From Streptomyces sp. DT2A-34 (lineage in GTDB: Bacteria; Actinomycetota; Actinomycetes; Streptomycetales; Streptomycetaceae), in contig NZ_JASTWJ010000001.1 in NCBI RefSeq assembly GCF_030499515.1, positions 6,552,001 to 6,616,000 of the forward strand: a stretch of 64,000 bases of DNA. Reading direction: 5' to 3'. Each line of letters begins with the position of its first letter. Within the stretch, counting starts at the first letter, position 1. The notes beneath the pieces were generated by a model, which had not been told where the DNA came from, ran no database searches, and saw only the letters and a program-made list of their open reading frames with translations. This document shows positions 33,977 through 52,620 of the stretch, piece after piece. The position numbers and the translations under genes are program-made.

Positions 33977-35128
33977 AGTCAGCGGGCTTGCGCAACGGGC
34001 ATCACTGGCGGTGATGCTGCGTTCGCGTCCAACCCCGCCCGGGCGTGTGCCCTCCGGTGGGGCAGGGGCCGTTGACTCGGCCCCGCGTCGCCACAACTCC
34101 CACGCGCGGGCGCGGATGTTGCGGGAGCCGTTCCGGTCCGCGTGCGCAACGACGCCGCAGGACCGGCACGCGAACCAGGCCTGGGAGACCCGGTTCGCCT
34201 TGTCGATGTGGCCGCACTCGGCGCAGGTGCGGGAGGTGTACGCCGGATCGACGTACACCAACGGCACTCCCGCTCGGCGGGCTTTGTACGCGATGAACTG
34301 CCCCAGCTGGGCGAACGACCAGCTGGAGTGGGTGGCCCGTTGGGGCTTGCGAAGCCGTACCCGCTCGCGGATCCCTGTGAGGTTTTCCAGGGCGATTCCG
34401 CGACCGGTGCGTTCTGCCTCGGCCACCACATGTTTCGCGATCTTGTGGTTGATGTCCTTCGCCCGCCGTGCCTCCTTGCGTCGTCGCTTCTTCAGACGCC
34501 GTTTGGCGGACGGAGTGTTCCTCTTCTGCAGCGCGATGCCCAGGTCGACTCCAAGGAAGTCCACCGGCTCAGTGCTCGGCGGCACTTCGGGAACCTCACA
34601 GGTGGCCAGCAGAAACCACATGCCGTCCCGGCACACGAGATCGGACTCGCCCTTGCGATACAGCGCCAGTGTGGCCAATTGCTCTGGGCCGGCGGTGAAC
34701 GCCACGTCCTTCACCCGGCCGTACACGGTCCAGATCGACACCCGGCGCTCCGTGATCTGCCAGGACAGCATCCGGTCGTCGTACGGCTGTGCGCTCTCAG
34801 GTCGGAAAGCGACAGGCTTCTCGTTGGCCTTCCGGTACCGCTTGGAGCCGGGCATGCCCAGGTTCCCGGCCCTCAGATTCGCCTTGAGAGTGGCGTACGC
34901 GTCACACGTCTTCTTGATCACATGCTGGGCCGCCTGCGCCCCCAGCCCCCAACGCGCCTTCGCTTCGTCGTAGGTGAGCCTGCGAAGCGCGAAGTTATTC
35001 TTCACATCCTTTTCGAAGGCGATCTGGCTGGCCCACGTCGCCGCCTCATTGCAGGCGCGCAGGGTCGCCTGAAGCGCCGTCGCCTGAACGGGTTTCAACA
35101 GCAGCTTTACCTGCACAACCAGCTTCAC
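33974..35128 (-). CDS. tnpB: TnpB RNA-guided nuclease, shortened near RuvC-I
   Basis: About 384 residues. RuvC-I Asp195 lies in FLGVDLGIALQKRN, RuvC-II Glu248 in GIALENLTGIRERV, zinc-ribbon pairs in TCAECG and CRSCG, and RuvC-III Asp331 in HADRNGSRNI. Directly after DLGIA, homologues carry about 35 residues (NIATTSDG... through a basic helix) before QKKNTPSAKRRLKK. Here the text jumps straight to LQKRNTPSAKRRLKK, suggesting an in-frame deletion. All catalytic acids remain but activity is doubtful. GTG at 35128 gives the usual KLVVQVKLLLKP start. Confidence 0.85.
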   Translation of the reverse strand: MKLVVQVKLLLKPVQATALQATLRACNEAATWASQIAFEKDVKNNFALRRLTYDEAKARWGLGAQAAQHVIKKTCDAYATLKANLRAGNLGMPGSKRYRKANEKPVAFRPESAQPYDDRMLSWQITERRVSIWTVYGRVKDVAFTAGPEQLATLALYRKGESDLVCRDGMWFLLATCEVPEVPPSTEPVDFLGVDLGIALQKRNTPSAKRRLKKRRRKEARRAKDINHKIAKHVVAEAERTGRGIALENLTGIRERVRLRKPQRATHSSWSFAQLGQFIAYKARRAGVPLVYVDPAYTSRTCAECGHIDKANRVSQAWFACRSCGVVAHADRNGSRNIRARAWELWRRGAESTAPAPPEGTRPGGVGRERSITASDARCASPLT

Positions 35129-35200
35129 ACCCGCGATGCTACCCGGCCTTTCATATCTCCATATTCGAACATGGAAAACCCGAGTCTTCGCGTTTAGCTG
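33974..35200 (-). mobile_element. IS200/IS605-type element (tnpB only)
   Basis: A single tnpB fills the element; no tnpA (Y1 transposase) is present. The right end has a short perfect hairpin (GCATCAC 33999-34005 with GTGATGC 34011-34017), as expected where the omega-RNA scaffold lies near tnpB's 3' end. The left edge lies between the tnpB start at 35128 and the fadD homology beginning at ~35202, and an AT-rich stretch fills that interval. Exact ends and target cannot be fixed from one copy. Confidence 0.75.
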
Positions 35201-35201
35201 C

Positions 35202-35798
35202 CCCGGCGCCGCCGTCCGCATCGCCGACGACGGCGAGGTGCTCATCAAGGGCGGCATCGTCTTCGGCTCGTACTGGAACAACCCGGCCGCCACCGACGCC
35301 GTCCTGCGGGACGACTGGTTCGCCACCGGCGACCTCGGCTCCCTCGACGAGGACGGCTACCTCACCATCACCGGCCGCAAGAAGGACATCCTCGTCACCT
35401 CCGGCGGCAAGAACGTCTCCCCGGCCGTCCTGGAGGACCGCCTGCGCAGCCGCCCGCCCGTCGGCCAGTGCGTCGTCGTCGGCGACAACCGCCCCTTCGT
35501 CGCCGCCCTGATCACCCTCGACCCGGACGCGGTGACCCACTGGCTCGCCGTACGCAAGATGCCCACCGACACCCCGCTCGCCGAGGTGATCCAGGACCCC
35601 CGGATGCGCGCCGACGTCCAGAAGGCCGTCGACTACGCCAACGAGGCCGTCTCCCGGGCCGAGTCGATCCGCGCGTTCACCCTGGTCGAGGGCGAGTTCA
35701 CCGAGGACAACGGCATGCTCACCCCGTCCCTGAAGGTCAAACGGCACGCGGTGACGGCGGCGTACGCGCGGGAGATCGAGGAGCTGTACGGCAACTGA
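35202..35798 (+). pseudogene. 3' fragment of a long-chain acyl-CoA ligase (FadD-type)
   Basis: About 199 codons of the C-terminal domain of an AMP-forming ligase: VRIADDGEVLIKGGIVFGSY, the hinge/A8 motif DDWFATGDLGSLDEDGYLTI with TGRKKDILVTSGGKNVSP, and the catalytic lysine region TPSLKVKRHAV. The N-terminal two thirds, including the P-loop and the acyl pocket, are absent. The homology starts abruptly at the edge of the IS element. It cannot be active. The missing 5' half is not on the other side of the element, so DNA was also lost. Confidence 0.85.
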
Positions 35799-38974: not shown

Positions 38975-40113
38975 CAGGAACTCACTTCCAGGGTCGAGCC
39001 GGACAGAGCGGCCGTGTACAGATCCATCAGCTGCCGGGCGGTGCACGCGATGTCGTAGCGGCGTACGACGTCCGGGGCGGTCCGCTCGCCCGGCCCTGCC
39101 GCTCGCAGCCGCAGCAGTTCACGTACGTACGCTTCGGTGCCGCCCGTGACGCGCCGGGCACCGGGTGCCGCGTCCGGCGGCAGGTCCTCGACGGCGGGGC
39201 AGCTCGCGTACAGCACGGGGAGCCCGGCCGCCAGGGCCTCCACCACGGCCAGGCCGAAGCACTCCTCCGGCGACGGCGAGGCGAGCACGTCCATCGCGGA
39301 CAGCAGGGCGACCAGGTCGGGTGCGTCGTCACCGGGGTCGGGCAGATACGGCCGCTCGCCGGTCAGCACCAAGCGGTCCGCGACCCCCAGCCCCAGGGCG
39401 ATGCGCCGCAGCGGCCACTGAGCGGGGCCGTCGCCGACCAGCAACAGCCTCACATCACCCGGGAGTTGGGTGAGAGCCCGGACGAGTACGTCGAAGTGCT
39501 TGCCGGGGGCGAGGCGCCCCACACCCCCGACGACGTACGCGTCGTCCGGCAGCCCGTAGAACGCCCGTGCCTCCCTGCGGCGCGCCTCGTCGAAGCGGAA
39601 CCGGGGCGCGTCGATGCCGTTCGGGATGACCCGGATGCGCGGTCCGGGCACACCCCAGTGCCGCAGCCGCTGCGCCACCGTCGGCGAGACGGCGACCGTG
39701 GCGCGGCCGAGGCGCTCGCCGGCCAGGTACAGCGCGCGGACGCCCCCGGTCAGCGGCCGGCCCTCCAGCCGGGTGGCGCCGATGGAGTGCTCGGTGGCCA
39801 CGACGGTCCGGACTCCCGCGAGCCGCGCCGCGATCCGGCCGTAGAGGCAGGCCCGGTACAGGTGGGTGTGGACGAGGTCGTAGCCGCCGGCGCGGATCAG
39901 CCGGGCCAGGCGCGGCAGTGCGCGCAGGTCGCGGTTGCCGTCCATCCCGAGGTGGGTGACGTGGACGCCGTCGGCGGCCAGGCCCGCGGCGACCGGGCCG
40001 GGGTTGGTCAGCGCCACCACGTCGCACTGCGCGGGGAGATGCCGCAGCAGGAGCCGCAGTTGCTGTTCCGCCCCGCCCACGCCGAGGCCGGTGATGATGT
40101 GCAGGGCCCTCAC
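38974..40113 (-). CDS. Glycosyltransferase family 4-type
   Basis: About 379 residues with a GT-B fold. HIITGLGVGGAEQQLRLLLR is the acceptor-side start and VIPNGIDAPRFRFDEARR the domain junction. GGVGRLAPGKHFDVLVRAL and SPSPEECFGLAVVEALAAGL form the nucleotide-sugar site with the EX7E-type motif. It adds one sugar to the lipid-linked repeat unit. GTG at 40113 overlaps the deacetylase stop as GTGA. Confidence 0.9.
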   Translation of the reverse strand: MRALHIITGLGVGGAEQQLRLLLRHLPAQCDVVALTNPGPVAAGLAADGVHVTHLGMDGNRDLRALPRLARLIRAGGYDLVHTHLYRACLYGRIAARLAGVRTVVATEHSIGATRLEGRPLTGGVRALYLAGERLGRATVAVSPTVAQRLRHWGVPGPRIRVIPNGIDAPRFRFDEARRREARAFYGLPDDAYVVGGVGRLAPGKHFDVLVRALTQLPGDVRLLLVGDGPAQWPLRRIALGLGVADRLVLTGERPYLPDPGDDAPDLVALLSAMDVLASPSPEECFGLAVVEALAAGLPVLYASCPAVEDLPPDAAPGARRVTGGTEAYVRELLRLRAAGPGERTAPDVVRRYDIACTARQLMDLYTAALSGSTLEVSS

Positions 40114-40901
40114 ACGGCCTCCAGGGCACGGCCGTAGAACCGGGCCAGGCGCCGCTTCAGCTCCAGCCGCACCGAGGTGTCCGCCTCCCCGAGGTGGATG
40201 CGGGGCAGCGCGAAGTCGCCGGAGCCGGCCGGGCCGGGGTCGATCGCGCAGGCGTAGCGGTAACCGGCCCGGCGTACGGCGTCGGCGGCACGCTCGTCGA
40301 GACGGCCGTACGGGTAGCAGAACCCCTCGATGTCCTCGCCGACGATCCCGGCGAGCCGGTTCCGGCTGTCGTTGACCTCGCTGTGCAGCACCTGGTCGGT
40401 GGCCTCGGTCAGATCGACGTGGGTCAGGCCGTGCGAGGCGATCTCCATGCCCGCGGCCACGGCTCGGCGGATGCCGTCGGCGTCGAGCAGCGGCTTGCGC
40501 GGGCCGGTCGGCTCCCACGCGTTCGCGCCGCCGAGCCGCCCGGGCAGCACGAACACGGTCGCCGTGAAACCCCGGCGGCGCAGCACGGGCAGGGCGGCGG
40601 TGACGAAGTCGGTGTACCCGTCGTCGAAGGTGAGCCCCACCAGCCCGCCCTCGGCGCCACGGGCGCGCGCCGCGAGCAGCTCACGGACGCTCACCCCGCG
40701 CAGGCCGCGGCGGGCCATCCAGGTGAGCTGCCGCTCCAGGCGCGCGGGCGTGACGGTGACGTTGTACGGGTCGTCCCGGCAGTCCGAGACGGAGTGGTAC
40801 ATGGCCACCCAGGCGGCGGGGCGCCGCTTTCGGCGTCCTTCCGCGATCGGTGGGGGAGCGGGCTCGTCCGCGCGTGGCGCGGCGGAGATGTCAGTGACCA
40901 T
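40110..40901 (-). CDS. Polysaccharide deacetylase (NodB domain)
   Basis: About 263 residues of the CE4 family. LVGLTFDDGYTDFVTAALPV carries the catalytic Asp pair, MEIASHGLTHVDLTEAT the zinc-binding His-x3-His motif, and FCYPYGRLDERAADAVRRAG the third motif. It removes N-acetyl groups from the polymer or from a precursor. No signal peptide is evident, although the N-terminus is long and polar. Its start overlaps the flippase stop by 11 bp. Confidence 0.9.
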   Translation of the reverse strand: MVTDISAAPRADEPAPPPIAEGRRKRRPAAWVAMYHSVSDCRDDPYNVTVTPARLERQLTWMARRGLRGVSVRELLAARARGAEGGLVGLTFDDGYTDFVTAALPVLRRRGFTATVFVLPGRLGGANAWEPTGPRKPLLDADGIRRAVAAGMEIASHGLTHVDLTEATDQVLHSEVNDSRNRLAGIVGEDIEGFCYPYGRLDERAADAVRRAGYRYACAIDPGPAGSGDFALPRIHLGEADTSVRLELKRRLARFYGRALEAV

Positions 40902-42585
40902 GGCGGGGCTTTCGTGTGACGGAGCGACGGAACGAATGCGCGACGGAACGTGCGACGGAAAGGAGCAGGGACCGGGCGTCGGCCGTGTCGAGGATCCAGG
41001 TCAGCAGCAGGAAGACGGCGGTCACGCAGGTGCCGCAGACGGCGACGGCCGCCACGGGCGAGGCGAACATCCCCGCGCAGACCAGCCCGGCTCCGGTGGC
41101 GCACACGGCCGCGTACACCGGTCCGGCCAGTCCGGCGACGACCCGGCGCACGCGCACGGGCACGGTGCGCGGGCCCAGGCCGTGCAGCAGGAGCAGCGCG
41201 GTGAGGGTGATGCCGGCCGCGTTGGCCCCGGCGATGCCGCGCGCCCCCCAGGGACCCACGGCCCAGACACTGAGGACGACGGTGGCGAGCGTGCCCGCGC
41301 CCATCGCGCCCAGCGGGTACCAGGTGGTACGGCCGGTCGAGAAGTACGACTGGACGAGCGCCCCCACCAGCGTGTGCCCGAGCAGCCCGACCGCGTACAC
41401 CCGCATGACGGCGGCGGTCGCGGCGGTGTCCTGGGCCGTGAACGCGCCGCGCTGGAACAGGAGTTGGGTGATCTGCGGCGCGCAGGCCACGACCACGGCG
41501 GCGCCGAGCAGCACCAGACAGGCCGTCAGCACCAGGTCCCGCTCGACCCGGTCCCTGGCCCGCCGCGTGTCGCCGTCGGCGAGGGCCCGCGCCACCACCG
41601 GGAAGGTGACGACGCACACCATCAGCGACAGCGACATCGGCAACTGGGCGACCTTCTGGGCGTAGTTGAGGTGCGAGATGGCACCGGCGGGCAGCCCGGA
41701 AGCGAAGTAGCGCTCGATGAGGACCTGCGACTGCCGGCACAGGGCGAAGAGCAGGACCGCGCAGACGAGGCCGACCGCGAGCCGCCGACCCCCGTCCCCG
41801 TCGTACGGCGCCCCGGACGCGGACCGGCCAAGCCGCCCGGCGATCCGCCGCCACAGCGACGGTGCCTGTACGGCGGCCATGAGGCACCCGCCGAGCGCGA
41901 CCCCGAGAGCGGCGGAGCGCACGCCCCAGCGGGCGGCGAGCACGACCATCGTGGCGATGATCGCGGCGTTGTACGCGATGTAGATCGAGCCCGGCGCGAA
42001 ATAGCTGCGGTGCGCCCGCAGCGCCGCGCTGCAGTACCCGGCCAGCCCGAAACTCAGCACGCAGGTCGCGGTCAGCCGGGTGCAGGACACGGCCAGGGAC
42101 GGGTCGGGCAGCCCGGGCGCGAGGACGGAGACCAGCAGCGGCGCCCCGGCCGCGAGCAGGGCGGCCGCGCCGGCGAGGGCGAGGCACAGCCGCGGCAGCG
42201 TGGCGGCGACCAGGGCCTGCACGGGGTCGGGGGCGCCGATGCCGCCCGCCCGCCGGGCCAGCGCCATGCTGAACGCCGGTACGAGCACGAACGCCATACC
42301 GTCCTCGATCAGCAGCGTCGACGCCATCTCCGGCAACGTCCAGGCCACCAGAAACGCGTCGGTGTCCGCCCCGGCCCCGAAGAGGTGCGCCAGCGCCTGA
42401 TCCCGCCCCAGCCCCAGCAGCGCCCCGACCATCGACAGCGCGGCGGACAACAAGGTCGCCCTGGCGAGAAAGCGCCCCGAGGGGGCCGCCCCGGGGCGGG
42501 GCCCTGCCGTATCGCCCTTGCCTCCGTCGAGGAGCCCGGCGTCCATGCCGGGAGCGTCGCCGGGCGGCACCGGGCGGAGCCTCAT
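40891..42585 (-). CDS. MurJ/MviN-like polysaccharide lipid flippase
   Basis: About 564 residues with ~14 hydrophobic helices of the MOP superfamily. ATLLSAALSMVGALLGLGRD, FLVAWTLPEMASTLLIEDGM and ISHLNYAQKVAQLPMSLSLM resemble MurJ. In this operon it most likely flips the lipid-linked oligosaccharide rather than lipid II. ATG at 42585 overlaps the polymerase stop. The C-terminus ends in an Arg/Ser-rich tail. Confidence 0.88.
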   Translation of the reverse strand: MRLRPVPPGDAPGMDAGLLDGGKGDTAGPRPGAAPSGRFLARATLLSAALSMVGALLGLGRDQALAHLFGAGADTDAFLVAWTLPEMASTLLIEDGMAFVLVPAFSMALARRAGGIGAPDPVQALVAATLPRLCLALAGAAALLAAGAPLLVSVLAPGLPDPSLAVSCTRLTATCVLSFGLAGYCSAALRAHRSYFAPGSIYIAYNAAIIATMVVLAARWGVRSAALGVALGGCLMAAVQAPSLWRRIAGRLGRSASGAPYDGDGGRRLAVGLVCAVLLFALCRQSQVLIERYFASGLPAGAISHLNYAQKVAQLPMSLSLMVCVVTFPVVARALADGDTRRARDRVERDLVLTACLVLLGAAVVVACAPQITQLLFQRGAFTAQDTAATAAVMRVYAVGLLGHTLVGALVQSYFSTGRTTWYPLGAMGAGTLATVVLSVWAVGPWGARGIAGANAAGITLTALLLLHGLGPRTVPVRVRRVVAGLAGPVYAAVCATGAGLVCAGMFASPVAAVAVCGTCVTAVFLLLTWILDTADARSLLLSVARSVAHSFRRSVTRKPRHGH

Positions 42586-43937
42586 CGCGGGCCCGCTTCC
42601 GCGGCCGGGGGCGTCGTCGCGTCGCGTGCCAGCGCCCACCAGGCGGCGAGGCCGAAGCAGATCGCCGTAAGGACGGTGGAGGGCCCGCCGATGTCGGCGT
42701 ACAGGAAGTTGACGAGCTGCCACAGCAGCAGCCCGCAGGCCGGGAGCGCGCAGTCCCGGCCCACGCGTCCGCTCCGCCGCAGCCGGCGCAGTGCGCACAC
42801 CAGCAGGGCCAGCCAGCCGCCCGCCACCGTGAGCAGCCCCAGCAGGCCCTGCTCGCTGAGCAGCAGCAGGTACATGTTGTGCGGGGACAGCAGGGGCTGG
42901 CGCCGGAAGGCCTGGCCCGCTCCCTGAGTGTCGCTGCCCGACGACAGCGCCAGCGAGGCATGGCCGTCCCGGTGTGCGGGAAAGGCCTTCAGCCCCACGC
43001 CCGTCACCGGGTGCCCGCGCCACATGTCGGCGGCCGCCGCCCACATGGTGTACCGGTCGACGACCGACTGGTCCGGCGCCTCGGCGACCTGCGTGATGCT
43101 GGTCAGCCGCTCCTGCAACGCCGCGGCGCCCACGCCGAGCCCTCCCACCAGCACCACCGAGGCCGCCACCGCCGCCGCGAACACCTTCACCGCGAGCCGC
43201 ACCCCGGCCAGCACCAGCTGCGCCCCGCAGGCGACCGCCGTGGCGATCCAGGCACCCCGGCTGAAGGACAGCGCGAGCGGCACGAGCAGCACCAGCGCAC
43301 ATCCGACCGCCACGGCCCGCTGCCGCCGCGCCCGCGTCCCGAGGGCGAGACCGGTCGCCGCCACCACGCCGCAGGCGACGACGCTCGCCATCCCCATCAC
43401 GTCGGACGGCCCGAACGTGCCCACCGCCCGGATGTCCGCTCCCTGGTACAAGGCCCCGGTCCCGGTGAGGTACTGGCGCACCCCGACCGCGCCCTGCCAC
43501 AGCGCGAGGCCGACCAGGGACCACAGCACCAGCCGCGCGCCCCGCCGGTCACGCACCAGCAGCACCACCGCGACCGGGACGAGCACGAACACCTGCAGGT
43601 AACGACCCAGTCCCGCAATCGCGTCGCCGGTGGTCAAGGCCCCCGCCGCGGCGACCGCGATACCCACCACGGGCAGCCCCAGCACGACAGCCGCCGTCCG
43701 CGTCAGCGGGCGCCGCGCCCGCCGTACGGTGTCCACGACCGCCCACAGCACGAGCAGCCCCGAGGCCGCGTCGGCGGGTGTGGCGGCGCTGTCCGGTGCG
43801 ACCGGCAGCCCCAGCAGGACGACGACCGCCACGACCGGCAGGACGGACACGACGGATCCGGCCCGCCGCGACGGCGACGGCGGCGGCGCCGGCAGCGGCG
43901 GTGCGAGCGGGGGAGAGGCCGCCGAGGAAGTACTCAC
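42582..43937 (-). CDS. O-antigen ligase/polymerase-like membrane protein
   Basis: A 451-residue protein with ~10 helices and a large loop carrying the Wzy_C/WaaL-type pattern. VVDRYTMWAAAADMWRGHPV and TGVGLKAFPAHRDGH precede LLSPHNMYLLLLSEQGLLGL, where the histidine is expected to be catalytic. It would polymerise repeat units outside the membrane. The Pro-rich N-terminus (residues 8-22) is low complexity. It starts 6 bp after the glycosylphosphotransferase stop. Confidence 0.88.
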   Translation of the reverse strand: MSTSSAASPPLAPPLPAPPPSPSRRAGSVVSVLPVVAVVVLLGLPVAPDSAATPADAASGLLVLWAVVDTVRRARRPLTRTAAVVLGLPVVGIAVAAAGALTTGDAIAGLGRYLQVFVLVPVAVVLLVRDRRGARLVLWSLVGLALWQGAVGVRQYLTGTGALYQGADIRAVGTFGPSDVMGMASVVACGVVAATGLALGTRARRQRAVAVGCALVLLVPLALSFSRGAWIATAVACGAQLVLAGVRLAVKVFAAAVAASVVLVGGLGVGAAALQERLTSITQVAEAPDQSVVDRYTMWAAAADMWRGHPVTGVGLKAFPAHRDGHASLALSSGSDTQGAGQAFRRQPLLSPHNMYLLLLSEQGLLGLLTVAGGWLALLVCALRRLRRSGRVGRDCALPACGLLLWQLVNFLYADIGGPSTVLTAICFGLAAWWALARDATTPPAAEAGPR

Positions 43938-43943
43938 CGGTGC

Positions 43944-45410
43944 TCAGCTCCCCGTCGGCCGTACGAACTGTGCCGCCGTGCGCAACAGGATGCAGACGTC
44001 CTGCCACAGCGACCAGTTGTCGATGTAGGCGTTGTCGTAGCGGCACCGGTCCTCGATCGAGGTGTCGCCGCGCAGCCCGTGGATCTGGGCGAGCCCGGTC
44101 ATCCCGGTGCGCATCCGGTGGCGGGCCGGGTAGCCCGGATGGGCCTGGCTGAACTTGGCGACGAAATAGGGCCGTTCGGGCCTCGGGCCGACCAGGCTCA
44201 TGTCACCGCGGAAGACGTTCCACAGCTGCAGCAGCTCGTCCAGCGAGGTCCGGCGCAGGAAGTGGCAGAAACGGCTCATGTCCTGCTCGTTGGCCACACT
44301 CCAGCGGGTCGCCGCCTCGTGCGCGCTGGCGGGCCGGTGGGTGCGCAGCTTCAGCATCGTGAACGGCCGCCCGTCCTTGCCGATCCGCTCCTGCCGGAAC
44401 ACCACGCCCGGCCCCTCCATGACCCGCAGCACGACCCCGCACACCAGCAGCACCGGGCCGGCCAGCACCAGCAGCGAGCCCGAGAGCACCACGTCCAGCG
44501 CCCGCTTGCCCACGCTGCCGCGCCGCCGTCCGCCCCTCGGCCACAGCAACCTCCGCGAGAAACCGGCCAGATGCCCCACCCCCTGGCGGCCCCCGCCGAG
44601 TCCGTACCAGGGGGAGTCGGCGTCCAGCTCCCACAGCACACATCCGTACGCGGCCAGCCCCCGCAGCACAGCGGCCTTCTCCACCCGGGTCGCGGCCCCC
44701 ACGACGAGCACCGTCTCCACACCGTTCTGGACGAGCGCCCGACGCGCGTCCTGCGCCGTGGTGAGTACCGGCAGACCGGGCTCGTCGTCCATGGCACCGA
44801 GGACTTCCGGGGTGTCGGCCACGACACCCACCGGCCGTACCCCGCAGTCCGGTCGGCGCAACAACGCGGCCGCGACCCGCCGGGCCTCCGTGACCGGCCC
44901 GACCACCAGGGCGGGACAGGGCCTGCGCCGCAGTGCCCGGCGCCGACCGCCGTGCACCGCCGCACGGCCCGCGCAGGCCGCCACGCAGTGCACGGTGACC
45001 GCGACGACCAGCACGGTCATCGACAGCGACCGCAGCGGCGACAGCGCCACGACGGCCGCCCAGCCGACGGCGATCCGGCCACAGACGGCCGGGAGTTCGT
45101 CGAACACGCCGGGGACGACCGAGGTGTCGTACAACGAGGCCCGCCGGTTCAGACCGATCACACCGAGGGCCAGCAGCGCGAAGACCAGCGGATACCTGTG
45201 CGGCGCGGGCACGACCAGGGCGCCCAGCAGGCCGGCGCCGCCGTCGACGAGCCCCAGGAGCGCCCCGGAGACCCGCCGCGGACGCCGGGCACCCCGCCCG
45301 GCGGGCGCCCGGGGTCCCGCGGCGAGGCCGCGCGGGCCGAGAACGGAGCCGGCGCCCTCGGGCGCCGGCTGCTGCCCCGCGGGCGAGGCGACGGTGCTGT
45401 CCGCGGTCAT
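43944..45410 (-). CDS. Polyprenyl glycosylphosphotransferase (exopolysaccharide initiation)
   Basis: About 488 residues of the WbaP/CpsE type. The variable N-terminal half has membrane helices and a CoA-binding-like fold. The C-terminal bacterial sugar transferase domain has KRALDVVLSGSLLVLAGPVL, VFRQERIGKDGRPFTMLKLR, SLDELLQLWNVFRGDMSLVG, and PRPERPYF then HRMRTGMTGLAQIHGLRGD. It loads the first sugar-1-phosphate onto undecaprenyl phosphate. Its start overlaps the upstream glycosyltransferase stop (ATGA). Confidence 0.93.
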   Translation of the reverse strand: MTADSTVASPAGQQPAPEGAGSVLGPRGLAAGPRAPAGRGARRPRRVSGALLGLVDGGAGLLGALVVPAPHRYPLVFALLALGVIGLNRRASLYDTSVVPGVFDELPAVCGRIAVGWAAVVALSPLRSLSMTVLVVAVTVHCVAACAGRAAVHGGRRRALRRRPCPALVVGPVTEARRVAAALLRRPDCGVRPVGVVADTPEVLGAMDDEPGLPVLTTAQDARRALVQNGVETVLVVGAATRVEKAAVLRGLAAYGCVLWELDADSPWYGLGGGRQGVGHLAGFSRRLLWPRGGRRRGSVGKRALDVVLSGSLLVLAGPVLLVCGVVLRVMEGPGVVFRQERIGKDGRPFTMLKLRTHRPASAHEAATRWSVANEQDMSRFCHFLRRTSLDELLQLWNVFRGDMSLVGPRPERPYFVAKFSQAHPGYPARHRMRTGMTGLAQIHGLRGDTSIEDRCRYDNAYIDNWSLWQDVCILLRTAAQFVRPTGS

Positions 45411-46546
45411 GGGGTGATGTACTTCCTGCCCTCGTCGGTGACGACCGACGTGGTGGCGAAGCCGAGCAGCTCGCGGTACACATCGGTCACTGCGTCCGTG
45501 GCGCGCCGCAGGTCGTGGGCAGCGAGCACATGGGCCCGGCCCCGTGCGCCCAGCGCCGTGCGCAGCGGTTCGTCCCCAAGCAGTGCCGTGAGCGCCCGGG
45601 CCAGCGCACCGGGGTCCTCCGGCGGCACCAGGCAGGACGGCGGACGGCCGGGCGGAAGGCTCTCGCGCGCCCCGGCCACATCCGTGACGACGACCGGCCG
45701 ACCGCACGCCATGGCCTCCAGCGGGGCGAGCGCCATGCCCTCCCAGCGGGACGGCAGGACCACCACGTCGGCGGCCCGGTACCAGGGGGCGGCGTCGGAC
45801 GTCGCGCCGGCGAACTCCACCGACGCGGGCGCCCCCGAGCGCAGCCGGTCCGCGTCCGGACCGTCGCCGACCAGCACCAGCCGGGCGCCGGTCACCTGCC
45901 GTGCCACTTCGGGCCAGGCCGCCAGCAGCACGTCCTGCCCCTTCTGGCGGCACAGCCGGCCCACGCACACCACGAGCGGCCTCGCCCCGGACCGGGCTCT
46001 GGCTCCCTCCGGCCGGAACCTGTGGGTGTCCACGCCGTTGGGGACCACCCGCCACGCGGCGCTGATCCCGCACCGCTCCCCGGTACGCCGCTCGGCCTCG
46101 CTCACACACAGAACGCGCGTCGCCCACCGCGCCCCGAGCCGCTCCCAGCCCCGCGCCAGGTGCGCCACGACACCGTTCGCGGCCTCGAACGACCAGGCGT
46201 GCGGCTGGAAGACGGTCGGAAGGCGGCCGCGCACCGCGAGCCGGGCCGCGAGCCCGGCCTTCGCGCTGTGCGCGTGCACCAGGTCCGGCTGCACCTCGCC
46301 CACCAGCCGCGCCAACAGCCGCACCTCGCCCGGAAGCCGGGGCCCCGGTGAGCGGGTGGCGTCCCAGCGGAGCACCGTGCATTCCGGCCCGCGCAGGGCG
46401 TCCGCCAGCGTGCCGCCCTCGGGACAGGCGACCGTCACGCGCAGCCCTTCGGCGAGCTGTGCCGTCGCCAGGTCCGTCACGACCCGCGCGACTCCGCCCT
46501 CGACGGGCTGGGCGACATGCAGAATGTGCGGCACGGAACTGCGCAT
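45407..46546 (-). CDS. Glycosyltransferase family 4-type, first gene of EPS operon
   Basis: About 379 residues, GT-B. HILHVAQPVEGGVARVVTDL at the N-terminus, DLVHAHSAKAGLAARLAVRG, VVPNGVDTHRFRPEG, and VVLPSRWEGMALAPLEAMAC with GRPVVVTDVAG. ATG at 46546 is taken because it gives the canonical N-terminus; GGAAGGG lies 11 bp upstream. A GTG 15 codons earlier has no ribosome site. The operon promoter should lie in the AT-richer 46600-46720 region. Confidence 0.9.
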   Translation of the reverse strand: MRSSVPHILHVAQPVEGGVARVVTDLATAQLAEGLRVTVACPEGGTLADALRGPECTVLRWDATRSPGPRLPGEVRLLARLVGEVQPDLVHAHSAKAGLAARLAVRGRLPTVFQPHAWSFEAANGVVAHLARGWERLGARWATRVLCVSEAERRTGERCGISAAWRVVPNGVDTHRFRPEGARARSGARPLVVCVGRLCRQKGQDVLLAAWPEVARQVTGARLVLVGDGPDADRLRSGAPASVEFAGATSDAAPWYRAADVVVLPSRWEGMALAPLEAMACGRPVVVTDVAGARESLPPGRPPSCLVPPEDPGALARALTALLGDEPLRTALGARGRAHVLAAHDLRRATDAVTDVYRELLGFATTSVVTDEGRKYITP

Positions 46547-46966
46547 GAGCGAGGCTGCCCTTCCGAAGGAGAGAGTCCGAACCAGCAACACGATGTGTGG
46601 CTCGCGTTCGGCTTCCTGGAGTCATGGGACGAGCAGCACCAGCCACTTATCCATATTTATCTGCCAACCGGCCAACGGTGTCGGAATGATCGCGTTTTCT
46701 GAGTGGTTTCTCGTACGGGACCACCCGTTTGGGGCCATGGGCCGTTCGGGGTGACCGGCGGGTGATCACATGATGTGAAACTCCCGCACCCGCGGCGCAG
46801 CGGGTCTTTTCGTATGAGTTCCTGGAACTTGTCGGCAGCAGAGTTTCCACCGGGATCCCCTCTCGTTAGCCCAGGAGAACCGAGACCGAGTCACTCGCGA
46901 CGCGCCAGGCGCGAAATCCCTTCCGGCGGACGCGAGTTACGGAAGTCGAGTCCCCACGAAAGGAAC
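46547..46966. promoter_or_regulatory. 420-bp divergent intergenic region (EPS operon / small secreted gene)
   Basis: No supported gene. It is AT-rich for this genome around 46600-46720, which suggests promoters for the minus-strand polysaccharide operon. A hairpin (ACCCGC 46788-46793 with GCGGGT 46800-46805, then CTTTTC) could terminate a short plus-strand leader. The right part leads to the secreted-protein gene with GAAAGGA at 46958-46964. Confidence 0.5.
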
Positions 46967-47272
46967 ATGATGAAGAACCTGAAGGCTGCTGCCGTCGTCG
47001 TCGGCTCCCTCGCTGTCGCCGGAGTCGCCGGCCCCGCCGCCGCGGTGGACATGCCGGCGTCGGGCCTCGTCGACAACGGGAAGACCGTCGCCCGCAGCCT
47101 CCCCAACGCCGCCAAGCTGCCGACGGGCTACGTGGGCAACAACGTGAAGCGCACGGCGGACGGCGTGAAGCAGGGCGTGAAGAAGTCCTCCGTGGTGAAG
47201 ACCCCCGTCTTCGGCGGCACCCTGCCGAACCCCGTCGACGGCCAGCTGCTCGGCGGACTTCCGATCAGGTAG
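46967..47272 (+). CDS. Small secreted protein, unknown function
   Basis: About 101 residues. The signal peptide is MKNLKAAAVVVGSLAVAGVA with cleavage near GPAAA|VDM. The mature ~75 residues are basic and polar with no cysteine (ADGVKQGVKKSSVVKTPVFG) and end NPVDGQLLGGLPIR. Tandem ATG codons at 46967 and 46970 follow GAAAGGA. A strong terminator follows at 47329. It is the only plus-strand member of a group of five small secreted proteins and is not visibly homologous to the others. Confidence 0.85.
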   Translation: MMKNLKAAAVVVGSLAVAGVAGPAAAVDMPASGLVDNGKTVARSLPNAAKLPTGYVGNNVKRTADGVKQGVKKSSVVKTPVFGGTLPNPVDGQLLGGLPIR

Positions 47273-47328
47273 GCGATCAGGTAGGCGATTCGTTTCCTCG
47301 ACTTCGTCGCCCATCGGCTCGACGTTCC

Positions 47329-47361
47329 GGGCCGGCTCCATCTCTCCCGGAGCCGGCCCTT
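47329..47361 (+). terminator. Terminator of the small secreted gene
   Basis: GGGCCGGCTCC (47329-47339) and GGAGCCGGCCC (47349-47359) pair perfectly over 11 bp with a 9-nt loop, followed by TTCGG. It lies 56 bp after the stop. Confidence 0.8.
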
Positions 47362-47509
47362 CGGCATGTTCGGGAATTACCCGTGCTCTTCGCCGCATGG
47401 AGCTTGCCGCATTGGGCCAAACGAAGGAATCAGGGTGACCACGGATGGCCCAGCTTCGTTGTTCCTGTCGAATGGGCGCTCATTCCTCCTTGTTGGCGCT
47501 CCCTCATCC

Positions 47510-47543
47510 GGGCCCTGTCTGCACACCGACGCAGACAGGGCCC
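47510..47543. other. Unassigned perfect hairpin
   Basis: GGGCCCTGTCTGC (47510-47522) and GCAGACAGGGCCC (47531-47543) pair perfectly over 13 bp with an 8-nt loop. It lies between the terminators of two convergent genes and belongs to neither. It could be a third terminator, part of a small RNA, or a protein-binding palindrome. Confidence 0.7.
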
Positions 47544-47586
47544 ACGAGCTTGGTACGGCTCGGTACCGAAAATCTCCGCGCACAAA

Positions 47587-47630
47587 AGCCGATGGCGGCC
47601 GGCCGGGATTCCGGCGGGCCGCCATCGGCT
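47587..47630 (-). terminator. Terminator of the last secreted paralogue
   Basis: A 13-bp perfect stem (47587-47599 with 47618-47630) contains an inner CCGG-GATT-CCGG. On the minus strand it is followed by TTTTG, giving a rho-independent terminator 12 bp after the 47642 stop. Confidence 0.88.
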
Positions 47631-47641
47631 GGAGCCACTGC

Positions 47642-47962
47642 TCAGAACAGCAGGCCGCCCACGTACGGGGCGTTCTGCGCCTGGTCGACCTTGGCCGTGT
47701 TGCAGGCCGCGTAGTGCGAGTTCGGAGCAGCGACGCCACCGAGAACGGCTCCGTTGGACCACGGGGCGAGGCAGCGAGCGTCGAGGAGGGCGCCGTTGAC
47801 GACGGCGATCCCCTGCTGGGGTTCGTTCACGACGACCGGAGACGTCGAGAAGCCGCTACCGCCCTTGACCGTGGTGGTGTCACCGTCGGCCGCGGCGGTG
47901 CCGCCGGTCGCGAGGACGATGCCCGCGGCGATGGCGGAGATGGCCGTAACCTTCTTACGCAT
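47642..47962 (-). CDS. Small secreted two-cysteine protein, paralogue 1
   Basis: A 106-residue protein. The signal peptide is MRKKVTAISAIAAGIVLATG with cleavage near GTAAA|DGD. The mature region begins TTTVKGGSGFSTSPVVV, then Cys64 in DARCLAPWSNGAVLGGV, Cys87 in NSHYAACNTAK, and a C-terminal GGLLF. The two cysteines, 23 residues apart, probably form a disulphide outside the cell. It is the third of three tandem copies read leftward and ends at a strong terminator. GGAAAGG precedes the ATG. No known family; the chaplin cysteine pattern and beta motifs are absent. Confidence 0.9.
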   Translation of the reverse strand: MRKKVTAISAIAAGIVLATGGTAAADGDTTTVKGGSGFSTSPVVVNEPQQGIAVVNGALLDARCLAPWSNGAVLGGVAAPNSHYAACNTAKVDQAQNAPYVGGLLF

Positions 47963-47996
47963 AAGTTGAGCCTTTCCGGGCTGCGTTCGGGATTTA

Positions 47997-48020
47997 CCTG
48001 CTCCGAATGCTCGGAGCAGG
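47997..48020 (-). terminator. Hairpin between secreted paralogues 2 and 1
   Basis: CCTGCTCCGA (47997-48006) and TCGGAGCAGG (48011-48020) pair perfectly over 10 bp with a 4-nt loop, two bases after the paralogue 2 stop. It probably attenuates transcription or stabilises the upstream message; it has no U-run. Confidence 0.7.
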
Positions 48021-48022
48021 AG

Positions 48023-48343
48023 TCAGAACAGCAGGCCGCCCTTGTACAGGGCGTTCTGCGACTGGTCGATCTTGGCCGTGTTGCAGGCGGCGTAGTGCGA
48101 GTTCGGCGCCACGACGCCGCCGAGGACGGCTCCGTTGGACCACGGCACGGCACAGCGCAGGTCGACGGCCGTGCCGTTCACGATGACAGCGCCCTGCTGG
48201 GGCTCGTTCACGACGACCGGGGACGTCGAGAAGCCGCTACCGCCCTTGACGGTGGTGGTGTCGGCGTCGGCCGCGGCGGTGCCGCCGGTCGCGAGGGCGA
48301 TGCCTGCCGCGAGCGCGGAGATGGCCGTAACCTTCTTACGCAT
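48023..48343 (-). CDS. Small secreted two-cysteine protein, paralogue 2
   Basis: A 106-residue protein whose signal peptide is nearly identical to paralogue 1 (MRKKVTAISALAAGIALATG). Mature features are the same: TTTVKGGSGFSTSPVVVNEP, Cys64 in DLRCAVPWSNGAVLGGVV, Cys87 in NSHYAACNTAK, and C-terminal GGLLF. The DNA is also very similar, so the duplication is recent or under conversion. Variation is concentrated at residues 52-66 (GAVIVNGTAVDLRCA against GIAVVNGALLDARCL). GAAAGG precedes the ATG. Confidence 0.9.
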   Translation of the reverse strand: MRKKVTAISALAAGIALATGGTAAADADTTTVKGGSGFSTSPVVVNEPQQGAVIVNGTAVDLRCAVPWSNGAVLGGVVAPNSHYAACNTAKIDQSQNALYKGGLLF

Positions 48344-48398
48344 GAGTTGCGCCTTTCGGGCTGCGTTGGGGTGATTCAGGTGCTGCGAACAGCAGAGG

Positions 48399-48734
48399 TC
48401 AGAACAGCAGGCCGCCCGCGTACGGGGCGTTCTGCGACTGGTTGACCTCGGCCGTGTTGCAGGCGGCGTAGTGCGAGTTCGGTGGGACGACGCCGCCGAG
48501 AACGGCTCCGTTGGACCACGGGGCGAGGCAGCGACCGTCGACGACGGTGCCGTTGACGATGAGAACGCCCTGCTGGGGCGCGTTCACGACGACGGGGGCA
48601 GTCGAGAATCCGCCACCGCCCTTGACGGTGGTGGTCTTGCCGTTGCCGTCGTATTCACCAGCAGAGGCAAGGCCTGCAGTTCCGACGACGGTGCTGAGGG
48701 CGAGGGCCGTGATGACCGCGAACTTCTTGGGCAA
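48399..48734 (-). CDS. Small secreted two-cysteine protein, paralogue 3
   Basis: A 111-residue protein with a different signal peptide (KKFAVITALALSTVVGTAGL, cleavage near ASA|GEY) but the same mature plan: KTTTVKGGGGFSTAPVVVNA, Cys69 in GRCLAPWSNGAVLGGV, Cys92 in NSHYAACNTAE, and GGLLF. The start is TTG at 48734 with GGAAGGA upstream, so translation may be weak or regulated. It is first of the tandem set. An AT-rich stretch with TGCATGCA (48790-48797) lies upstream and is a likely promoter region. Confidence 0.88.
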   Translation of the reverse strand: MPKKFAVITALALSTVVGTAGLASAGEYDGNGKTTTVKGGGGFSTAPVVVNAPQQGVLIVNGTVVDGRCLAPWSNGAVLGGVVPPNSHYAACNTAEVNQSQNAPYAGGLLF

Positions 48735-49215
48735 CTCGGTTCCTTCCTGAATTCACGGTTGCGCACGCTTACGAAAAGGAAACCCGTATATGCATGCATA
48801 AGTCACGGCGGGAACATTCAAACGTGGCCAGATTCCTTCGGATGGCGCAACGCAGCGTCCCAGCCGCCGACCCGCTTTACGCTCATTCCCGGGAAGGTCC
48901 GAGAAGGTCCGGGACGGGCGGAACCGAGGCGGAATCCGCGTGGTGTTCCGGGGGAATTCCGGTGCGTTGGGCCGAATGGAGCCGGCCGGAGAGCGGGCCG
49001 ACATGCGTCCGGCCCACCGGCAGGGGGAGGGCCGGTGGGCCGGACAGAATGGTTCGCGGGGGCGCGGGCCCGTGGGCCCGCCGTGTGCGGAGGTGGAGCT
49101 GCGGGTCCGGATCCAGCGTCTGGGCCTGCTGTCGGTCTCCGGCTCCCGAGAACCGGATCAGAGTCTCAGAATTCCGGGCCCAGCTCTGTCCCGCGAACGG
49201 GCGGGACCAAGGGCT
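48735..49215. other. 481-bp gap upstream of the paralogue cluster
   Basis: No supported gene on either strand. It carries the presumed promoter of the tandem secreted genes near 48770-48830, a short direct repeat (AAGGTCCG twice near 48893-48910) and the strong hairpin at 49007-49045. Confidence 0.5.
49007..49045 (-). terminator. Long perfect hairpin downstream of the 130-aa secreted gene
   Basis: Arms 49007-49021 and 49031-49045 are perfectly complementary over 15 bp with a 9-nt purine loop. It lies 170 bp after the 49216 stop and has no U-run. It probably isolates the upstream gene from the tandem paralogues. Confidence 0.65.
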
Positions 49216-49608
49216 TCACTTCTTCGGGAGCAAGGTGCCGAGGCCCGCGGCGGTCGGCGCATGCAGCGGGTGCACCTGGACCGTGCCGCTCCCGGCCGGG
49301 TTCTTCACCGGAATCGTGGGCTTCTTGGCGGCATTCGGGTCCATTCCGTCCAGGTAAATGCCGGACATTCCCCCGGACTTGTTCTTGTCGAACGCGCTGC
49401 CCTTCGCAACCCCGCCTTCGCGGGCCAGTCGCGTCACGGCATCGGCCGCGGGCAGGACCGCCGGGCTCACTTTGGTCGGGGACATGAGCCCGCCGAGCGG
49501 GCTGGTGGAGATTCCCGATCCCCCGGCGGCCGACGCCGCAGCGGCGGAGCCACCCACAAGACCCGCACCGATCGCCAACGCAGCCGTGGTGAAAACTGCC
49601 TTCTTCAT
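49216..49608 (-). CDS. Small secreted protein with GGSG-STSP motif
   Basis: A 130-residue protein. The signal peptide is MKKAVFTTAALAIGAGLVGG with cleavage near ASA|AGG. The mature N-terminus GGSGISTSPLGG repeats the GGSG-x-STSP motif of the tandem paralogues, but the rest differs: a Pro/Ala/Lys-rich segment, GGMSGIYLDGMDPNAAKKPT, and a C-terminal LGTLLPKK. It has no cysteines. AGGTGA precedes the ATG. It likely shares a secretion- or surface-related role with its neighbours. No family known. Confidence 0.86.
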   Translation of the reverse strand: MKKAVFTTAALAIGAGLVGGSAAAASAAGGSGISTSPLGGLMSPTKVSPAVLPAADAVTRLAREGGVAKGSAFDKNKSGGMSGIYLDGMDPNAAKKPTIPVKNPAGSGTVQVHPLHAPTAAGLGTLLPKK

Positions 49609-49841
49609 GATTCACCTCGCTTGAAAGTACCTCTGATCCAACGGTTGGAGAACATAGCAGTCCAAGACCGCTGCAAAAGCGACGCGTTGCTCCATACGCG
49701 TGAAAAACGCAGGGGTGAAGAATGGAATGCACAGAGGCATTCGGAGGGATTGGCATCTGGTCCACGAATCCATTGATCGTATGGTGCGTCCGGCTCGGTC
49801 GACCGCCTGCGCGATCCGAAAGAGGAATTACCCTCGGCGCC

Positions 49842-50579
49842 ATGACCACCGACAGCGTCAAGTCCACTCCGGCCGTGACCGCCGACAGGTCGCTCATCTG
49901 GTCGGAGGAGTTCAGCGCCCCGATCGCCTGGGGCGCCAAATGGGTCGGCGACCGGTCGAGCGCCTACCGCTACCGCGACCACAACCCGGACGACAACAAG
50001 CTCGACTGGCTCACCCCCGGCTGCGTGACCGTCTCGGGCGGTGTGGCGACCTTCACCGCCACACCGTCCGGCCACACCCTGGAGAACGGCCGGCAGGCCT
50101 GGCACACCGGCCTGCTCACCACCGAGTACTCCGACGAGGGCTTCCGGGTGAGGACCGGCGACTACGTCGAGACCCGCGTCCGACTGCCCTCCGGGACCGG
50201 AGCCTGGCCGGCGCTGTGGACTTGGAAGGACGGCGAGAACGAGGTCGACTCCTTCGAGTACCACCCGGACAATCCGCACCTGCTGGAGCTGTCCAACCAC
50301 GTCAACCGCGGTGCGACGTACTACACCGACGCGGACGCGATCGCCCCGGACCGGTGGGTCACCATCGGCACCCGCTACGGCGCGTGTTCCGTCGAGTGGT
50401 ACGTCAATGGCGCGGGTGTCTTCTCCGACGGCACCGGCGTCGGCGCCGACTGGTCGGCGTACCTGATCCTCAACCTGTCGGTGTGCGCCGGCCGGTACCA
50501 CCCGGCGCCCTGCGGCTCGGCCCCGATCACCTTAGGCGTCGACCACCTCCGCGTCCACCGCGAGGCCGCGCGGTGGTGA
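49842..50579 (+). CDS. GH16-like beta-glucanase, contains a TTA codon
   Basis: About 245 residues of the GH16 jelly-roll type. The active-site motif is GENEVDSFEYH (Glu134, Asp136, Glu139), flanked by TGAWPALWTWKD and YVETRVRLPSGTG. It lacks a recognisable signal peptide from ATG 49842; a longer start at 49722 does not supply one. Leu231 is encoded by TTA (50532-50534), the rare codon read by the bldA tRNA in Streptomyces, so expression may be tied to development. GTGA at its end overlaps the next gene. Confidence 0.8.
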   Translation: MTTDSVKSTPAVTADRSLIWSEEFSAPIAWGAKWVGDRSSAYRYRDHNPDDNKLDWLTPGCVTVSGGVATFTATPSGHTLENGRQAWHTGLLTTEYSDEGFRVRTGDYVETRVRLPSGTGAWPALWTWKDGENEVDSFEYHPDNPHLLELSNHVNRGATYYTDADAIAPDRWVTIGTRYGACSVEWYVNGAGVFSDGTGVGADWSAYLILNLSVCAGRYHPAPCGSAPITLGVDHLRVHREAARW

Positions 50580-51178
50580 CCCCGGCGCCGGGCACGCGGC
50601 AGGCCGTGGGCGGCGGCCGGGCGTTCGCCCTGCTGCTGGTGCTCACCGGGGCGGCCGGGCTGCTGGCCTCCTGGGTCATCACCCTCGACAAGTTCAAGCT
50701 CCTCGAAGACCCGGACTTCACCCCGGGCTGCAGCCTGAACCCGGTGGTGTCCTGCGGCAGTGTGATGGAGAGCGACCAGGCCGAGGCCTTCGGGTTCCCC
50801 AACCCGATGCTGGGCCTGGTGGCCTACGGCATCGTGATCTGCGTCGGCATGAGCCTGCTGGCCGGGGCCGCCTTCCCGCGCTGGTACTGGCTGACCTTCG
50901 AGGCCGGATGTCTCTTCGGGATCGGGTTCGTCTCCTGGCTGCAGTTCGAGTCCCTGTACCGGATCAACGCGCTGTGCCTGTGGTGCTGCCTGGCCTGGCT
51001 CGCGACGATCCCGCTGTTCTGGTATGTCACCTCCTTCCTCGTGCGGAACTCCTTCCTGCCCGCGCCGGGTCCGGTGAAGGCCTTCCTCGCGGAGTTCACC
51101 TGGGTGCTTGCGCTGCTGCACATCGGGATCGTCGGGATGCTGATCCTGACCCGTTGGTGGGACTTCTGGACGAGTTGA
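50576..51178 (+). CDS. VKOR-family (vitamin K epoxide reductase-like) protein
   Basis: About 200 residues with four to five membrane helices. Active-site CXXC is Cys134/Cys137 in NALCLWCCLAW, and the shuttle cysteines are Cys52 and Cys60 in PGCSLNPVVSCGSV. Bacterial VKOR homologues reoxidise DsbA-type proteins through quinone, so this enzyme can drive disulphide formation in secreted proteins. GTG at 50576 overlaps the GH16 stop, suggesting co-translation. Confidence 0.92.
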   Translation: MTPAPGTRQAVGGGRAFALLLVLTGAAGLLASWVITLDKFKLLEDPDFTPGCSLNPVVSCGSVMESDQAEAFGFPNPMLGLVAYGIVICVGMSLLAGAAFPRWYWLTFEAGCLFGIGFVSWLQFESLYRINALCLWCCLAWLATIPLFWYVTSFLVRNSFLPAPGPVKAFLAEFTWVLALLHIGIVGMLILTRWWDFWTS

Positions 51179-51278: not shown

Positions 51279-51776
51279 ATGGCCGTCAGCGCAGACGGAG
51301 TGTCGGTGGGTGCTGTACAGGGGGCGGGCACCCCGGTGAGCGGGGAGCCGGAGCGGCGGACACGGCGGGAGGCGGCGCGGATGCTGCTCGCCTCCGCCGC
51401 GGTGGCGCTCACGCCGGTGCTCGCCGCCTCCCGGCCCTCGCGGTCCGTGGAGGGGCAGCGGGAGTCCGACACCCCTTTCGACGAGACCTACCGCGGCCGC
51501 CGTATCCAGGGCGCCCCGCTTCCCTTCGAGGGCCTCAGCGCTCTCGGCGCCGAATGGCGCGTCACCGTGGACGGCCGCCCGCTGCACCTGATGCGCCGTG
51601 CCGACGGCACCTGGCTGAGCATGATCGACCACTACAGCTGGTACCGGACCCCGCTGGAGGCGACCCGCGCGGCCGTCGACGAGCTCGGGCCCCGCCGACG
51701 GCTGCTCGACCTGGCTCCCGGACCGTTCCACGGCGGGCATCTGCACATGGAGGCGCAGCATGGTGTACGTGCGTAA
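51279..51776 (+). CDS. melC1: Tyrosinase copper chaperone MelC1-type
   Basis: A 165-residue tyrosinase cofactor protein. After a twin-Arg-like N-terminus (ERRTRREAARMLLASAAVAL) come FDETYRGRRIQGAP, VDGRPLHLMRRADGTWLSMI and DHYSWYRTPLEATRAAVDEL, the conserved MelC1 core. It delivers copper to tyrosinase and can carry it through the Tat route. Its 3' end overlaps melC2 by 17 bp. A GAGGAGTGAGCG ribosome-site region lies just before the ATG. Confidence 0.92.
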   Translation: MAVSADGVSVGAVQGAGTPVSGEPERRTRREAARMLLASAAVALTPVLAASRPSRSVEGQRESDTPFDETYRGRRIQGAPLPFEGLSALGAEWRVTVDGRPLHLMRRADGTWLSMIDHYSWYRTPLEATRAAVDELGPRRRLLDLAPGPFHGGHLHMEAQHGVRA

Positions 51777-52620
51777 GAACGTCAGCAAGCTGACCCGCAC
51801 CGAGCGGCGGCGGTTCGTCGAGGCGCTGCTCGAACTCAAACGCACCGGTGAGTACGACGAGTTCGTACGGCTGCACATCGAGTACTTCGTCGGTGACGGC
51901 GACCGAGGCCTGCGCGCCGCCCATATGTCGCCCTCCTTCCTGCCCTGGCACCGCCGGTTCGTGCTGGACCTGGAGAGCGCCCTGCAGCGTGTCGACTCCT
52001 CGGTGACGGTGCCGTACTGGGACTGGACCCGGGACCGTTCGACCACCTCGGTGCCGTGGACCGACGATCTGCTCGGCGGCACCGGGCGCCCCGTGGACCG
52101 GCAGGTGATGACCGGGCCGTTCGCCTACCGGACGGGCAACTGGACCATCACAGAGAGCATCACCAACGTCGAGTTCCTCACCCGGAGCCTGGGCCGCCCG
52201 CGCGATCCGATCGACCTGCCCACCCGGGACGATCTGAACTGGGCGCTGAAGGACCCCGTCTATGACGTCGCCCCGTGGGACTCGACGGTCACCAAGGGCT
52301 TCCGGAACAAGATGGAGGGGTGGGGCAACGGCCGGGTCGTCTGGCGCAACCACAACCGGGTGCATCGCTGGGTCGGGGGAGTCATGCTCGGCGGCGCGTC
52401 CGTCAACGACCCCGTCTTCTGGCTGGTCCACGCCTTCATGGACATGCAGTGGCAACGCTGGCAGCGGCGCCACCGCAAACACCGCTACCTGCCGGCGAAG
52501 CCACCCGGCCGCAGCAGCGCGCAGTACGGCCGGATCGTCGCCCGGCACGAGCGGCTGCCGCCGTGGGACGTGACTCCGGACGAGCTGGAGGACATGTCCG
52601 AGATCTACCGGTACGCCTGA
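51760..52620 (+). CDS. melC2: Tyrosinase MelC2/MelD2-type
   Basis: A 286-residue type-3 copper monophenol oxidase for melanin formation. CuA ligands are His39 (RLHIEYF), His55 (RAAHMSPSF) and His64 (PWHRRF). CuB ligands are His198 and His202 (NHNRVHRWVGG) and His224 (FWLVHAFMD). All six are present. The usual His-His before CuB ligand 3 is Val-His here, and the region around residues 125-180 departs from classic MelC2, so it resembles the second Streptomyces tyrosinase type. GTG start inside melC1. Confidence 0.92.
   Translation: MVYVRKNVSKLTRTERRRFVEALLELKRTGEYDEFVRLHIEYFVGDGDRGLRAAHMSPSFLPWHRRFVLDLESALQRVDSSVTVPYWDWTRDRSTTSVPWTDDLLGGTGRPVDRQVMTGPFAYRTGNWTITESITNVEFLTRSLGRPRDPIDLPTRDDLNWALKDPVYDVAPWDSTVTKGFRNKMEGWGNGRVVWRNHNRVHRWVGGVMLGGASVNDPVFWLVHAFMDMQWQRWQRRHRKHRYLPAKPPGRSSAQYGRIVARHERLPPWDVTPDELEDMSEIYRYA

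Follow-up and report, generated by a model that had tools for sequence, protein, structure and literature searches.

A stretch of 64,000 nucleotides from Streptomyces sp. DT2A-34 (contig NZ_JASTWJ010000001.1, positions 6,552,001 to 6,616,000 of the forward strand; hereafter, the window) carries three tandem genes for small secreted proteins with two conserved cysteines (Cys), here called A, B, and C. They form a real family outside the curated libraries that we searched. This two-Cys family and the rodlins nearly exclude each other among Streptomyces genomes, an association that holds up in tests that take the phylogeny into account (p about 0.002 to 0.009). From sequence comparisons, we propose with moderate confidence that the proteins may belong to a coat or sheath family of aerial hyphae or spores that stands in for rodlins. 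Among the roles considered by a first-pass annotation of this DNA (surface coat, adhesin, or toxin-like protein), one at the surface still fits best, the location being presumed.

The genes lie in the order C-B-A on the minus strand (47642–48734), and the open reading frames (ORFs) for three tandem secreted proteins of 106–111 amino acids reported in the first-pass annotation were confirmed, with signal peptides read by eye. Pairwise DNA identity is 87% for A/B, 78% for A/C, and 77% for B/C. All three window copies contain, after the signal peptide, the core by which we recognized members (PQQG-x4-NG, RC-x2-PWSNG, and Y-x2-C), and in 3/3 the two Cys are 23 residues apart and the protein ends in GGLLF. 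In alignments the core (PQQG-x4-NG-x5-RC-x2-PWSNG-...-Y-x2-C) consists of near-invariant columns, and the family plan is conserved far beyond chance. The earlier description of Cys exactly 23 apart and an invariable GGLLF end is correct for the window copies but does not extend to the family: 34/38 A, 35/39 B, and 34/38 C copies have the 23-residue spacing (otherwise 24, 27, or 28), and 25/38, 28/39, and 23/38, respectively, have the GGLLF terminus. More than two mature Cys were found in 21/39 B copies; in the eight cases viewed, the extra Cys directly follow the signal peptide (CNCT and DNCT types). A TTG start was found in 38/38 C copies, unlike the ATG of window copies A and B; this may be a brake on translation that has been conserved.

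Among 5.8 billion proteins searched, 239 homologues were found at an expectation value (E) ≤1e-3, and a profile search, a kind of check that had been suggested earlier, returned 274 at E ≤ 1; the organisms named among the matches listed (the best 120 of 239 and the best 120 of 274) were Streptomyces throughout. The family was present in 27/392 sampled Streptomyces genomes (28 matched, and G051 was removed because its match at E 1e-4 is mainly signal peptide). At least three copies occur in 26/27 of these genomes (the third copy of G280 is partial), the exception being G022, which has two copies at a contig end. A search of the host genome (10.3 Mb in two contigs; close to S. muensis on an rpoBC tree, within a Streptomyces clade that also includes S. 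cyaneus and S. regalis) found no member beyond A, B, and C at E ≤ 10. Some genomes depart from the usual triplet. G146 has a triplet plus a diverged solo relative (locus L082, about 4998–5240, minus strand) with a shorter core and 12 residues between the core Cys. S. melanogenes (L052, 8643–10296) has only two copies (C and another one) and the neighboring gene g4; another 9.6 kb of flank contains no g5, glycosyltransferase, or exopolysaccharide (EPS) genes, and this locus may be a simpler version of the unit. In S. violascens (L045, 10969–12644), an IS3-like OrfA, identified by eye, lies between copies B and A. Copy A of this locus is a fusion with a long Gly/Thr-rich repeat (TGTG, GNLTG) and has its own signal peptide, so the core can be carried by a stalk.

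According to the literature, rodlins coat almost all streptomycete spores (PMC8397704); obvious rodlins are confined to streptomycetes and are 'lost readily', S. avermitilis, S. griseoflavus, and S. hygroscopicus being examples (PMC4255298). A rodlin profile, built from 13 rodlins gathered by a search, matched 274/392 Streptomyces genomes when at most 10 candidates were scored per genome: 1/27 family-positive genomes compared to 273/365 others (Fisher's exact test: p 7e-14, not tree-aware). When all first-look candidates were scored in the named family-positive genomes, some of which are also among the 27, rodlins were found in 3/38. On the rpoBC tree (78 genomes, 44 positive and 34 negative, with G403 [L023] left out), a model of dependent evolution outperformed independence (Pagel likelihood-ratio test: p = 0.0018), and 17/2000 simulations of independent rodlin evolution were as extreme as the observed data. 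Chaplin domains, counted from at most 16 candidates per genome, had a median of 6 in family-positive genomes (exactly six in 21/27) versus 10 in rodlin-positive genomes.

The copies themselves evolve mainly in concert: signal peptides are copy-specific, and C-terminal thirds are homogenized within genomes, silent sites included. We compared the three copies in 35 genomes; L045, L052, and the near-duplicate L023 were left out of this comparison and of the codon analysis, and L024, in which copy C is off the contig, was left out of this comparison. Amino acid differences between copies in the C-terminal third were 0.158 within genomes versus 0.323 in permuted pairs, and in the signal peptide 0.474 versus 0.496. 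At fourfold-degenerate sites, within-genome and permuted values were 0.290 and 0.298 in the signal peptide and 0.188 and 0.273 in the C-terminal third. None of 200 permutations was as low as the within-genome difference in the C-terminal third; the permutation ignores relatedness, and the evidence lies in the contrast between segments. Because silent sites are homogenized, gene conversion is indicated rather than selection alone. In the tree of N-terminal halves, all 35 C copies formed one pure clade and the nearest neighbor was the same copy in 102/107 cases (same genome: 5/107), whereas the largest pure C clade in the C-terminal tree held 6/35. The variation 'confined to one segment' of the first-pass annotation is a gradient, from a copy-specific N-terminus to a partly homogenized C-terminus. 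Its proposed duplication under selection gives way to concerted evolution: pairwise dN/dS (the ratio of nonsynonymous to synonymous rates) among orthologues has a median of 0.42–0.44 (highest pair 1.41), leaving positive selection over the whole gene unsupported.

The earlier remark that no known family matched was borne out, in that the five small secreted proteins of the cluster (A, B, C, and their neighbors g4 and g5) had no match at threshold in Pfam, NCBIfam, or PADLOC. Rodlins (RdlA/RdlB) resemble the family in being small, secreted, two-Cys Streptomyces proteins that usually occur in several copies, and the motif order looks similar by eye (rodlin PQ...QG-x5-C...N-x2-C-x2-N; family PQQG...NG-x6-C...N-x5-C-N). 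They differ in the absence of profile homology and in their nearly exclusive distribution, and the two-Cys family, unlike rodlins, sits beside EPS genes. Chaplins (PF03777) are likewise small and secreted, most often with a pair of Cys, and UniRef names on some members read 'Chaplin domain-containing protein', 'Chaplin', or 'Small secreted domain'; that A, B, and C are divergent chaplins is nevertheless highly improbable. PF03777 matched 0/81 family members at E ≤ 0.1 and nothing at the locus when the host genome was searched at E ≤ 10, and the Cys are 18 apart in aligned two-Cys chaplins compared to 23 in most family members. Profile-profile comparison with hhalign, run on profiles all three of which were shallow (effective sequence number about 2 in the chaplin comparison) with no positive control, gave a probability of 0.1 over one aligned column for chaplins and of 0.3 (E 0.21, 16 columns) for rodlins, which excludes recognizable but not very remote homology. 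Membership of either family was rejected on these profile results. A search of PDB sequences gave only a weak match to PsbQ' (E 0.16, residues 5–55, signal peptide included). No paper on the two-Cys family was found in literature searches, which is weak evidence because the family has no searchable name.

Small size, secretion, a capacity for disulphides, and patchy distribution would also suit antagonistic or toxin-like peptides, and copy A has a sub-threshold match to lactococcin-972 (12.6 bits, E = 0.12; NCBIfam cut-off 32.1 bits). This match covers residues 1–39, the signal-peptide end of the protein. None of the five proteins matched a toxin, immunity, or defense family at threshold, immunity genes not having been sought systematically, and the steady three-copy synteny and homogenized copies point to a structural role. 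We regard the toxin-like role, which the first-pass annotation had raised, as highly unlikely.

Under the coat interpretation, A, B, and C would be exported through their by-eye signal peptides, the two conserved Cys may form or exchange a disulphide, and the proteins would assemble together at the surface, where g4, g5, and in many cases the polysaccharide encoded next to them are putative partners. The coat would take the place of the rodlin (rodlet) layer, with a small set of chaplins alongside, the exclusion being a correlation. Gene conversion may serve to keep the C-terminal assembly surfaces of the three copies matched in each genome, and the N-termini would stay specialized. Conserved synteny of g4-C-B-A, g5, and the glycosyltransferase, the presence of at least three copies in nearly all positive genomes, rodlin exclusion, the low and even number of chaplin domains, and concerted evolution were counted in its favor.

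Several observations weigh against this interpretation. Rodlins are kept by four positives: G280, S. viridochromogenes NRRL 3413, S. cellostaticus, and S. violascens, the last having a disturbed unit (the IS3-like ORF, the copy A fusion, and absent g5 and EPS genes). The positives cluster on the tree, which is built from one locus, with positives oversampled and negatives that are not random draws. Both the family and rodlins are absent from 92/365 negative genomes, which means that rodlin loss does not require the two-Cys family. These rodlin-less negatives have a median of 7 chaplin domains (fewer than six in 30/92), no different from the positives (p = 0.37). In the C-terminal tree, the nearest neighbor was still the same copy in 84/107 cases (same genome: 12/107), indicating that conversion is intermittent. 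Structure prediction, another check suggested in the first-pass annotation, was poor in both AlphaFold runs (mean predicted local distance difference test scores of 43.8 and 44.9), with no confident fold and one tentative beta-hairpin at residues 27–36 of the mature chain, predicted at low confidence. We take this to be neutral on an assembling coat protein, neither supporting nor refuting it.

A special case of the coat would be spiny or hairy spore ornamentation built by the unit, which we consider possible but on the unlikely side. The family is also found in S. spinosirectus and S. spinoverrucosus, whose names mean spiny. All five positive species with a retrieved description are reported to be spiny: S. 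cellostaticus (PMC11061393), S. spinosisporus and S. sediminimaris (PMC12166134), S. viridochromogenes (PMC12705811; from an assigned isolate and from a table column taken as that species), and S. chartreusis (PMC7145952; an isolate assigned to the species); this five-of-five count is biased, since the searches were mostly worded for 'spiny' and smooth positives could be missed. For the positive S. monashensis, no spore-surface description was found in the retrieved part of PMC6395624, the S. chartreusis evidence concerns an assigned isolate, and the spiny S. cellostaticus has retained one rodlin. Outside the species scored for the family, spiny spores are also described for S. echinatus and S. 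naphthomycinicus (PMC11061393). The fuller proposal, that the g4-C-B-A/g5 unit is a genetic determinant of spiny spores and a coat system that arose in place of a rodlin layer, with three subunits kept co-assembling by gene conversion, is a tentative one that we would not expect to hold in full.

Gene order (g4-C-B-A, g5, glycosyltransferase) is conserved across most of the 38 named Streptomyces loci, usually adjoining an EPS operon (Table 1; neighbors were counted within fetched flanks at the identity thresholds of our script). A different explanation is that the proteins bind or organize the EPS made by this operon, with no special link to spores or rodlins. TasA/RbmA-type extracellular matrix proteins are encoded beside EPS operons, and like the two-Cys family they are small exported proteins with genes next to polysaccharide synthesis genes; the two-Cys family differs in having no Pfam match at threshold. 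Linkage to EPS genes, which the first-pass annotation proposed to check, is strong (Wzy gene in 27/38 loci, glycosyltransferase in 33/38) but not absolute. The Wzy gene is not beside the cluster in 11/38 loci, of which four are cut by a contig end and seven (L028, L033, L039, L041, L045, L046, and L052) keep the small-protein genes with at least 7.6 kb of flank beyond the cluster, which argues that an adjoining EPS operon is dispensable to the unit, although EPS genes may lie elsewhere in these genomes. The strongest departures are S. violascens (L045) and S. melanogenes (L052), which lack g5, the glycosyltransferase, and the EPS genes despite ample flank. An EPS-matrix role would also leave rodlin exclusion unexplained, and we judge it a doubtful alternative to the coat. 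An ORF beside the EPS operon (33977–35326, minus strand) has a Cas12f1-like TNB domain of TnpB type (PF07282, E 4e-22) and is probably a transposon gene.

Linkage to the VKOR-family gene, also raised earlier, proved loose (18/38 loci within fetched flanks). Next to this gene lies a tyrosinase pair, melC1/melC2 (window 51279–52620). The VKOR-melC neighborhood is also present in L028, there flanking the opposite end of the cluster, suggesting that VKOR and melC may travel together.

Table 1 Features of the two-Cys locus and its surroundings (window coordinates)
Feature	Position	Strand	Remarks
Polysaccharide deacetylase, EPS operon	40110-40901	-	
MurJ/Wzx-type flippase, EPS operon	40894-42585 (approximate bounds)	-	
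Wzy/O-antigen ligase-type protein, EPS operon	42582-43937	-	27/38 loci
Bacterial sugar transferase, EPS operon	43944-45377	-	24/38 loci at >=55% identity
Glycosyltransferase family 4	45407-46591	-	Directly downstream; 33/38 loci
Conserved promoter/leader block upstream of g5	46855-46963	+	Alignment of 25 sequences
g5	46964-47272	+	About 102 aa from first of two Met codons; secreted; divergently transcribed; separate family
20-bp inverted repeat, then short T run	47587-47630	-	After copy A
Copy A	47642-47962	-	106 aa; signal peptide (by eye) and two-Cys core
B-A spacer	47963-48022	-	10-bp stem-loop, read by eye in window; stem shared with L016 and L017
Copy B	48023-48343	-	106 aa; signal peptide (by eye); no extra mature Cys
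C-B spacer	48344-48398	-	Short stem-loop, by eye in window
Copy C	48399-48734	-	111 aa; TTG start; signal-peptide lineage of its own
Conserved promoter/leader block upstream of copy C	48735-48870	-	Alignment of 38 sequences
g4	49216-49608	-	130 aa; Cys-free; secreted; separate family
Conserved promoter/leader block upstream of g4	49609-49720	-	Alignment of 38 sequences
VKOR-family disulphide enzyme	50567-51178	+	Loosely linked; 18/38 loci

The two other small secreted proteins are close companions of the triplet, g4 in 37/38 named loci and g5 in 35/38. For g4, 88 homologues were found, all listed, and every organism name shown was Streptomyces, with the same kinds of species as in the triplet family. 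The first-pass annotation was right about a Cys-free neighbor and a divergent fifth gene, but the motif common to g4 and the triplet is present in only 11/38 g4 orthologues; it is lineage-specific, and g4 as a fourth family member was ruled out.

The hairpins noted earlier between the units are real: a perfect stem of at least 7 bp was found in 38/73 intercistronic spacers across species versus 49/730 shuffles, with differing stem sequences. The inverted repeat after copy A is likely a rho-independent terminator. Taken with the conserved upstream blocks, these elements would fit a C-B-A operon with processing or stabilizing hairpins and a terminator after A. The strongly conserved, promoter-like blocks upstream of g5, C, and g4 share a TTTCGTA-like core, seen by eye. 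A BldN-type promoter was rejected: ahead of the five genes of the window, the closest matches to the consensus had 3–5 mismatches of 12 (2 at one g5 locus). Rfam at gathering thresholds gave no match in 46700–49900.

The two-Cys family is a candidate stand-in for rodlins in about 7% of sampled Streptomyces genomes (27/392). Homogenized C-termini combined with private N-termini suggest a three-subunit assembly with a testable interface. If the family does form an alternative surface, spore dispersal could be compared between two coat types, given that rodlins mediate flagellar hitchhiking (PMC8397704). If that surface includes spines, a trait used in streptomycete taxonomy would gain candidate genes that can be tested genetically.

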